From assembly GCA_937998305.1 (NCBI GenBank), contig CALLDL010000120.1, positions 1 to 64,000 of the forward strand: a stretch of 64,000 nucleotides of DNA, given 5' to 3'. This document shows positions 31,729-57,752 of this stretch, in pieces (positions within the stretch are counted from its first letter, which is position 1; every line of letters begins with the position of its first letter). Origin of the DNA: an uncultured Desulfobacterales bacterium. Its GTDB lineage: Bacteria; Desulfobacterota; Desulfobacteria; Desulfobacterales; UBA11574. A model generated the notes under the pieces. The model saw nothing but the letters and a program-made list of their open reading frames with translations. It had not been told where the DNA came from and did no database searches. Made by a program: the position numbers and the translations under genes.

Positions 31729-32525
31729 CACGTCTCGATATCGCTTTTTCAACATGCCCAAACGACACGTTTATTTTTCACGCAATGCTTCATGATTGTA
31801 TCGATACAAGAGATTTTCGTTTCATTCCCCATATGCACGATGTGGAAGAATTAAATAAAAAGGCTTTTTCCAAAACATTCCATGTCTCCAAGCTCTCTTT
31901 TTATGCCTATCTTAAACTCAGACAATCCTATGAAATCCTTGATGCAGGATCCGCCTTAGGGTTTGGATGCGGGCCGCTGCTTGTGGGAAGATCAGCGGAT
32001 ATTTCATTTTCAAAAGCAAAAATTGCCGTGCCCGGAGAATACACCACCGCAAATCTTCTCATGAGGTTGTGGAATCCTTCAATACACAATGTCGAAGTCA
32101 CCCGGTTTGACAATATTCTCGAAGGCGTCCAAATCGGAAAATACGATGCCGGACTCATCATTCACGAAGGCCGATTCATCTATCCGGAGTATGACTGTGT
32201 CGAAATCATCGATCTTGGCAAATGGTGGGAGGACGAAACATCGCTTCCCATCCCATTGGGATGTATTGCCGTCAGAAAAGATCCCCCTTTTATCGATTAT
32301 AAACAGGATATGGAATCTGTTCTACGCAATTCGGTGGCGTACGCTTTCAATAACAGGGATGCATCCAGGGAATTTGTGAAATTTCATGCCCAGGAAATGG
32401 ACGATCAGGTGATTGACGGGCACATTGACCTTTATGTCAATAATTTTACCCTATCGTTAGGGGATACAGGAAAAGAAGCCGTTCAGGCCCTTGAGGAGAT
32501 GGCACGTTGGAAACAGATATTGTAA
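31725..32525 (+). CDS. mqnD: 1,4-dihydroxy-6-naphthoate synthase
   Basis: The 266-residue protein has the MqnD pattern IAFSTCPNDTFIFHAML at the N-terminus, VSKLSFYAYLK near 53 and GFGCGPLLVGR near 79, with IHEGRFIY near 145. It releases dihydroxynaphthoate from the cyclic futalosine product. ATG at 31725 overlaps the mqnC stop and has GGAG just upstream; the frame extends further upstream inside mqnC but without a homologous lead. It overlaps mqnB by 19 bases. Confidence 0.92.
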   Translation: MTRLDIAFSTCPNDTFIFHAMLHDCIDTRDFRFIPHMHDVEELNKKAFSKTFHVSKLSFYAYLKLRQSYEILDAGSALGFGCGPLLVGRSADISFSKAKIAVPGEYTTANLLMRLWNPSIHNVEVTRFDNILEGVQIGKYDAGLIIHEGRFIYPEYDCVEIIDLGKWWEDETSLPIPLGCIAVRKDPPFIDYKQDMESVLRNSVAYAFNNRDASREFVKFHAQEMDDQVIDGHIDLYVNNFTLSLGDTGKEAVQALEEMARWKQIL

Positions 32526-33196
32526 CGGCCATTGTCATGGCCACCATGCTTGAGGCAAAGCCATTTGTCCTGGGGATGTCCTTACGGCAGACCCGGAAAA
32601 TTCCTTTCCGATTGTTCCAAAATGACGGAATTTTATTAATTATTTCGGGCATCGGCAAAGCCAATGCCGCCATGGCGACGGCGTATAGCTGTCTGAAATT
32701 CAAGCCGGCCTGCATCTGTAATTTGGGCGCAGCTGGCGCCACACATTCCGGATATGATCTTGGAGAGATATGTCATATTCAGAAAATTGTCGAACCTGAC
32801 CGGCCCGATCTCAAAACCGGGAAACCATGTGTTCACAAACCGGATTTACTGGCAGGATTCAATACCACGATACTGGCCACCAGGGATCGGGCGGTTCTCG
32901 ATCCTAAAGAAAGAAAAGCGATTTCCATAAATGCCGATCTTGTAGACATGGAAGGCGCCTCGGTGGTTCAGGCCTGCAGAACGTTTAAGAAAAATTGTTA
33001 TCTATTCAAATTCGTCAGCGACACACCGGATCATACGCGCGATCAGGATATTGTGAATCATATTCGGCTTTACCGCAAAAAATTTTATGATTTTTTTACG
33101 GATTCCGTAAGGCCGGTGTTGCCTGTCCCTTCCGCGTTCTCCCGCGAAAAGCATGCGGGAGTCGAGGTCTCCCCCACTTCTAAGTCATTGAAATGA
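32507..33196 (+). CDS. mqnB: Futalosine hydrolase, 3' end altered by a repeat
   Basis: A nucleosidase of the MTA/SAH-phosphorylase fold: AIVMATMLEAKPF near residue 8, IISGIGKANAA near 45, NLGAAGA near 72, DMEGASVVQA near 147 with the acidic base-binding residues, and FKFVSDTPDH near 167. It removes hypoxanthine (or adenine) from futalosine. TTG at 32507 is favoured by GAGGAGA eight bases before it. The last 30 residues or so (from about VRPVLPV) are translated from the dispersed repeat at 33111-33282, so the native C-terminus was replaced; the core is complete. Confidence 0.88.
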   Translation: METDIVTAIVMATMLEAKPFVLGMSLRQTRKIPFRLFQNDGILLIISGIGKANAAMATAYSCLKFKPACICNLGAAGATHSGYDLGEICHIQKIVEPDRPDLKTGKPCVHKPDLLAGFNTTILATRDRAVLDPKERKAISINADLVDMEGASVVQACRTFKKNCYLFKFVSDTPDHTRDQDIVNHIRLYRKKFYDFFTDSVRPVLPVPSAFSREKHAGVEVSPTSKSLK

Positions 33197-33282
33197 CGAA
33201 GCCACTTCGCCAACTCGCCTGCCATGCAAGGCACGAGCGGGCAGGTATCGTTTCACGAGGAAGCACACCCGGTGAACACATA
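33111..33282. repeat. Truncated copy of a foldback element, fused to mqnB
   Basis: About 140 bases match the centre and right arm of the element at 46955-47169 (shared blocks GTTCTCCCGCGAAAAGCATG, CTAAGTCATTGAAAT, GAAGCCACT and CGCCAA), with an extra 32-base piece here (CTCGCCTGCC...GAGCGGGCAGG, itself a hairpin). The left arm is missing. Its 5' part supplies the end of the mqnB reading frame. Confidence 0.75.
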
Positions 33283-33399
33283 TAAAAAAATGTCGAGTAG
33301 GATTTGTACTCTTTAGTAAGTGTTTATTTTCAGAACTCCAGTGAAAGTCCGTGTTTGAAAACCGATATGATAATAAATTGCCGAGTCGTCAAACACAGT

Positions 33400-46556: not shown

Positions 46557-46954
46557 ATGCAAATTATAACCGATGTTGTTAAAGACGCACAAAAAGCCGC
46601 CGATTTCATCTTCATGAAAGCGGCCCTGCTTGTTGTTGTCGTTGTTTTAGCCCTTTGTTGTGACGGGTTAAAAATAATTCATATTCTAAAGAACCTTTAC
46701 AAAACATTCCCATCGGAGACACGGTTCAAGGTGATGTGGACGACGGATTATGGGACGGTCCGATTCTTTTTTACAAAGGAAACGGAAAGCCCATTCACCT
46801 GATCCTGGTGGAGAAGGCCCTCCAAAAGCTTCACTTATATTTCTATGACGGTCGCTACCAGTTAATAAAGAGCTATGATTGCAGTACCGGAGAACAGCCC
46901 GGGAAAAGACCTTATGGTATTACTCAGGCGGGAGTGGAGCGAGGAATGATGGAG
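46557..46954 (+). pseudogene. Broken L,D-transpeptidase gene next to a foldback element
   Basis: One frame from ATG near 46557 supplies a signal-like hydrophobic segment. A different frame then supplies NIPIGDTVQGDVDDGLWDG and IHLILVEKALQKLHLYFYDG followed by IKSYDCSTGEQPGK, the start of a YkuD-type L,D-transpeptidase domain. The frames do not connect, so a frameshift has occurred, and the catalytic half of the domain is missing because the sequence runs into the element at 46955-47169. The remaining 3' part is absent. The gene was therefore inactivated. Confidence 0.7.
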
Positions 46955-47169
46955 CGTACGTATTCACGGGGTGCGCTCCCCCGCTTCACTCCGGCGTCTA
47001 CGTGTCCGGTTATTTCAATGACTTAGCATCGGTGGCATTCCTGCCCCTTCCACGTTCTCCCGCGAAAAGCATGCGGGAGCCGCGGTCTCCCCTACTGCTA
47101 AGTCATTGAAATAAAGAAGCCACTCCGCCAATATCGTTACACGGGGAAGCGCACCTCGTGATATGTACG
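46955..47169. mobile_element. Foldback/MITE-like element with TA-flanked inner inverted repeats
   Basis: The outer arms are long imperfect inverted repeats: left begins CGTACGTATTCACGGGGTGC and right ends GAAGCGCACC...ATATGTACG. Inside them TTATTTCAATGACTTAGC at 47010-47027 and its exact complement GCTAAGTCATTGAAATAA at 47097-47114 form perfect 18-bp inverted repeats, with TA at both ends. A GC-rich hairpin (CTCCCGC...GCGGGAG, 47057-47078) sits at the centre. A partial copy is at 33111-33282. No transposase is encoded. Confidence 0.75.
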
Positions 47170-47190
47170 ATTGATAGGTGTATGGGAGGT

Positions 47191-57373: not shown

Positions 57374-57499
57374 TTTTTATCTCCTATGGTAAGGGTGTCA
57401 AACTGCATTGCCAGGAACTATACTCATGAATTTGTTTTATTGTAAATACCGATATAGAAAAACCTCTTGACAGGCGCTAGCATATCCTTTAGAAAATTT

Positions 57500-57680
57500 G
57501 GCAAGGTGCCTGTTAAAGGCTTAATAGGGAATCCCGTGAGAATCGGGAGCGGTCCCGCCGCTGTAATCCTGCCCCTTTTTCATAAAGGGAACCTTTTTAG
57601 CAAATATGTGTCACTTTTCCGATAAATTGGAATGGGAAGGCCGCTAAAAGGGCGGGAAAGTCAGAAGACCTGCCTGAACA
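57500..57680 (+). promoter_or_regulatory. Cobalamin (B12) riboswitch
   Basis: The aptamer blocks are clear: GGCAAGGTGCC at 57500, AAAGGCTTAATAGGGAATCC, the B12-box-like GAGCGGTCCCGCCGCTGTAA near 57550, a variable arm, GGGAAGGCCGC and GTCAGAAGACCTGCCTGAAC at the 3' end (57660-57680). Between it and the small gene at 57853 lies an intrinsic terminator (57753-57792), so control is probably by transcription termination with repression by cobalamin. Confidence 0.92.
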
Positions 57681-57752
57681 ATATAGACACACCTCCGCGG
57701 CATGACGGGGTGATGTGGCTTCAGAAAAATAGGGTCAAGTAAACTGGGTGCA

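Follow-up and report, generated by a model that had tools for sequence, protein, structure and literature searches.

The stretch of DNA analysed here, the window, is 64,000 nt long and comes from an uncultured Desulfobacterales bacterium. Two copies of a short foldback element concern us, one following the remains of an L,D-transpeptidase gene and the other at the end of mqnB. The features at these two loci, with the evidence by which they were placed, are as follows.

32507–33196, plus strand: mqnB, futalosine hydrolase-like (PF01048), 229 aa, the last ~20 residues coming from the MITE
33118–33283 (left limit approximate), plus strand: 5′-truncated MITE of the 246-bp form, whose start supplies the MqnB C-terminus (family alignment, congeners)
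46557–46949, plus strand: L,D-transpeptidase pseudogene with a 1-nt deletion near 46665 and a 509-bp deletion (congener alignment)
46899–46910, no strand: junction of the 509-bp deletion between short direct repeats, separate from the element (congener alignment)
46947–46949, plus strand: original L,D-transpeptidase stop codon TGA, retained left of the element (alignment with congeners G195 and G196)
46948–46955, no strand: left 8-bp target duplication, decayed, GATGGAGC (judged against G195 and G196, which have one copy each, GATTGATA and GATGGATA respectively)
46956–47168, plus strand: near full-length MITE, 213 bp (consensus 214 bp), 93.7% identical to the consensus (family alignment and consensus; empty site in G195 and G196)
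46956–46983, plus strand: left terminal inverted repeat, 28 bp in the consensus (family alignment, consensus)
47010–47028, plus strand: inner inverted repeat, left arm; it does not mark an end of the element (repeat search, family alignment)
47096–47114, minus strand: inner inverted repeat, right arm (repeat search, family alignment)
47142–47168, minus strand: right terminal inverted repeat, one base deleted relative to the consensus (family alignment)
47169–47176, no strand: right 8-bp target duplication, GATTGATA (comparison with G195 and G196)

The near full-length copy has a perfect 19-nt inner inverted repeat enclosed by long outer arms, and its DNA fold (z = −6.1) is more stable than any of 200 shuffles, in agreement with the foldback that the sequence-only reading had described. 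That reading placed the element at 46955–47169, which is correct but for one flanking base too many on each side, the limits given above having been fixed by family alignment together with the target duplications. An 18-mer, TTATTTCAATGACTTAGC, has three matches in the window at up to three mismatches (0.11 expected), the third being the partial copy near mqnB.

Searching the host assembly (3.35 Mb in 239 contigs, 88.6% complete) returned 40 matches to the family, or ~36 loci after pieces of single copies were joined, with 87–92% identity among the longer matches, and this genome-wide search bears out the earlier proposal of a mobile foldback that lacks its own transposase and is present elsewhere in the genome. 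These counts are of assembled copies; several copies end at contig ends, as expected since repeats break draft assemblies. Aligned copies have common sharp ends, GTAC...GTAC, and the 214-bp consensus is self-complementary at 70% over its entire length, with 28-bp terminal repeats that begin GTACGTGTTCA(C/G)GGGG and agree at 27 of 28 positions. Short, multi-copy, bounded by terminal inverted repeats and without a transposase gene, the element is a MITE. A 246-bp form contains an additional 32-bp hairpin, always at one position, and three short copies, about 120 bp from end to end, are without the centre. The possibility that the latter are ancestral empty forms, with the centre a nested inner element, was considered and rejected, since their three differing junctions between near-identical GTCATT..AATGAC repeats look like separate deletions. 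No match to the MITE was found in the plasmid and phage records searched.

The flanks of the element provide the evidence for transposition. In 36 copies with both ends, drawn from the host and its relatives and from named Desulfobacterales records, the flanks agree over 8 bp, with 68% identity compared to 31% when re-paired, a value reached in none of 2000 shuffles and peaking at 8; as loci in different records may in some cases be orthologues, not all of these copies are independent. Empty sites, which the sequence-only reading had proposed to look for in relatives, were found in congeners at both window loci. Duplications of 8 bp combined with empty sites show transposition and argue against a duplicated RNA or regulatory element. 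Copies lie mostly at intergenic positions and insertions avoid genes, with 6 of 34 empty sites falling in an ORF of at least 120 aa versus 469 of 600 random points at the same loci; targets are AT-rich (69% versus 54%). Identical insertion flanks (TACGGAACATGCTT followed by the MITE) were seen in Desulfobacteraceae BM005 (L045) and at host position C148:21507, indicating that some insertions are common to species-level records.

It is very probable that the element is a non-autonomous transposon which a single-ORF transposase of the IS66 family mobilises in trans, that the window copy lies at a stop codon and that the adjoining gene was lost separately. In the proposed mechanism, a transposase with PF03050 and DUF6444 would recognise ends of the form GTANNN(A/G)TTCA(C/G)(A/G)GGG and move the MITE in trans. 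IS66 elements as a rule have GTAA ends and 8-bp duplications, checked here on the elements named below. Single-ORF IS66-family elements with PF03050 and DUF6444 from the same order, a group whose label we take to be ISBst12-like, carry MITE-like ends. The element L086, from the same family as the host, ends in GTACGTATTCAGGGGG and GTAATTGTTCAGGGGG; L126, L130, L131 and L174 have MITE-like ends together with identical 8-bp duplications, and the ends of L134 also match. One genome (G333) contains both L174 and a divergent MITE. Eight IS66 elements were chosen because their ends could be located, and each of the 16 ends scores 12–15 of 16 against the MITE end, whereas a score of at least 12 occurs at 5 positions among 127,970 in the window, some of which are the MITE itself. 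Comparison of the ends showed similarity over the ~16–20 terminal bases and none beyond, and IS66 elements at greater distance end differently, for example in GTAACCATTCACTCCCC. The likeness comprises both the end motif and the 8-bp target duplications; the two differ in that the IS66 elements are 1.5–1.7 kb long and encode a transposase of ~460–480 aa, while the MITE is 214 bp and non-coding, with likeness seen at the ends alone.

The partner can only be inferred, as a search of the host assembly (draft, 88.6% complete) gave no PF03050 transposase. None was found either in the MITE carriers G120, G103, G066, G193 and others, which are mostly incomplete drafts (G066 is a single contig), and four genomes of G103's family, the one richest in perfect MITE ends, yielded no IS66. 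That the transposase is missing from most genomes with the MITE speaks against an IS66 partner; however, such absence is weak evidence because most of the genomes are drafts. Alternatively, and rather improbably, the MITE would belong to another transposase family with 8-bp duplications, and the likeness to IS66 ends would be convergent. The lack of an IS66 transposase in most sampled MITE-bearing genomes is consistent with this, but several IS66 elements match the MITE at both ends (12–15 of 16 positions), show the same choice of C or G at position 12 and likewise duplicate 8 bp of target. Mobilisation by the DUF6444-bearing IS66 group appears to be the best-supported interpretation.

The element was previously thought to have broken the L,D-transpeptidase gene, and this does not hold. 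In G195 and G196 the frame is intact, with 303–308 codons between stops and the ending GAG GAA TGA, and the end of a convergent gene follows within ~20 bp of the TGA. Compared with these congeners the host locus differs in three ways: one nucleotide is deleted near 46665, a 509-bp deletion took away most of the gene, and the MITE has been inserted at the original TGA, where the MITE-free sites hold a single copy of the target. The gene is broken by the 509-bp deletion and the 1-nt frameshift and not by the MITE. The copy would have landed at the stop codon, in the short gap before the convergent gene, with neither gene damaged, and the L,D-transpeptidase gene would have been lost separately through the deletion and frameshift. 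It is quite unlikely that the MITE itself caused the 509-bp deletion, for instance as a deletion adjacent to a foldback: the junction is ~45 bp from the element, but the deletion ends sit in the gene's own ~11-bp direct repeat, CCGGGAAAA(A/G)A, the element is untouched and copies of the target duplication are present on both sides. The cause of the gene loss is thereby corrected, the nearest repeat not being responsible for it. The suggestion of recent mobility holds in part. The element was mobile, and congeners 92–94% identical at this locus do not have it; "recent" is overstated for the window copy, since its target duplication retains 5 of 8 bases and it differs from the consensus by ~6%.

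At mqnB, the claim that a partial copy forms the C-terminus of the protein is upheld, ~20 residues being encoded by the MITE in the host and the element being missing from the congeners. Congener MqnB ends at ~210 aa, with the endings ...RPVLPVPGIL in G196 and ...RPMLPGLDI in G194, whereas host MqnB runs from RPVLPV into the truncated MITE and ends after 229 residues. The partial copy was initially given as 33111–33282; it exists, with limits of ~33118 to 33283. No duplication is visible, as the left junction falls within the element. Probably, the inserted copy lost its left half along with the last mqnB codons, and what is left of it encodes the new tail. Two further repeats were noted here. 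The 32-bp hairpin of the 246-bp form, CCCGCCTGCCATGCAAGGCACGAGCGGGCAGG (window 33214–33245), also occurs at L009, L011 and L014, and is present in G205 without the MITE (L116, near mqnB), so that this hairpin may be a small repeat in its own right. Another repeat, TATCAGTAAAAAATGTCGAGTAGGATTTGTACTCCTTAGTAA, follows the MITE fragment behind mqnB (window 33285–33320) and also follows another MITE copy; it was noted at loci L156–L164 and L010, the host has as many as 14 matches to it, and at other sites a conserved TTGATATCAAAGTCAGCATATCAG stretch precedes it.

When 194 genomes from the order and 291 from the class were sampled, every match listed fell within the order. MITEs related to this one occur in other families, measure 212–216 bp and are 71–83% identical over the aligned part, and their inner arms differ yet stay complementary. 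Apart from L049 (JAACEJ010000521.1, labelled Actinomycetota), which has the MITE core and is perhaps a mis-binned contig, all MITE records are from Desulfobacterales or Deltaproteobacteria. In the 2.3-Mb draft G103, from another family of the order, the MITE end is matched 62 times in forward and 60 times in reverse orientation, in many cases perfectly, and these matches include 39-bp minimal copies with little beyond the two ends.

In an alignment of 14 sequences with 68 pairs, 93.8% of cells are paired and double changes occur in 28 of the 68 pairs; double-change cells number 115 compared to 43.6 in shuffles and 6–17 in slid controls, although the structure was taken from the same alignment and is somewhat favoured, and related rows are counted more than once. 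Length, the central hairpin and some internal loops are kept through compensatory changes in several families of Desulfobacterales. Selection on the entire 214-nt foldback as a DNA structure, beyond its ends, nevertheless seems doubtful; if true, IS66-type mobilisation or tolerance by the host may depend on a cruciform or a single-strand hairpin. Two papers describe template switching between the arms of inverted repeats, which is reported to homogenise the arms and to maintain hairpins (PMC8604942, PMC8794818), and such switching would account for the covariation no less well than selection. A non-coding transposon with covariation this strong is a natural case for separating template-switch correction from structural selection.

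The same covariation across families of the order, and conserved unpaired stretches such as TCTCCC, might point to a structured RNA, or to a regulatory element, that spread through duplication and was retained for RNA function. This is very unlikely: apart from the evidence for transposition above, strand bias is absent, 17 pair columns having G.T and 22 having A.C mismatches and hence no sign of a strand-specific RNA, Rfam covariance models gave no match at E up to 1, and switching between arms, as those papers describe it, yields such covariation free of selection. Negligible, finally, is the probability of an IS630/Tc1-type element inserting at TA and bounded by the inner repeats, the origin suggested by the sequence-only reading, because the TTA...TAA edges of those repeats are substitutions private to the window copy (the consensus and other copies read GGTCATTTC...GAAATGACG), and the empty sites show duplications of 8 bp rather than TA, outside GTAC ends of IS66 type.

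The elements described here constitute a new MITE family, a known kind of element with an unusually well-maintained structure. QMITE2 of Coxiella burnetii is likewise short and non-coding with a stable whole-length fold, and bacterial MITEs of this type have 23–29 bp terminal repeats, 7–9 bp duplications and an intergenic bias (PMC10969869). The window family shares these traits; it differs from QMITE2 in sequence, host and probable transposase, and in spanning several bacterial families with compensatory changes. IS66 is not mentioned in that review of prokaryotic MITEs (PMC10969869), and our search of the open-access literature found no paper on an IS66-linked MITE. Our results define a MITE family across an order of mostly uncultured relatives of sulfate reducers and tie it to IS66-type ends. 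Small dispersed repeats of the ERIC or Correia type are also foldback, intergenic and sometimes fused to genes, and are set apart by description through their sequence, size and target. Elsewhere in the window, a cobalamin riboswitch (RF00174, 85.8 bits) lies at 57487–57691.
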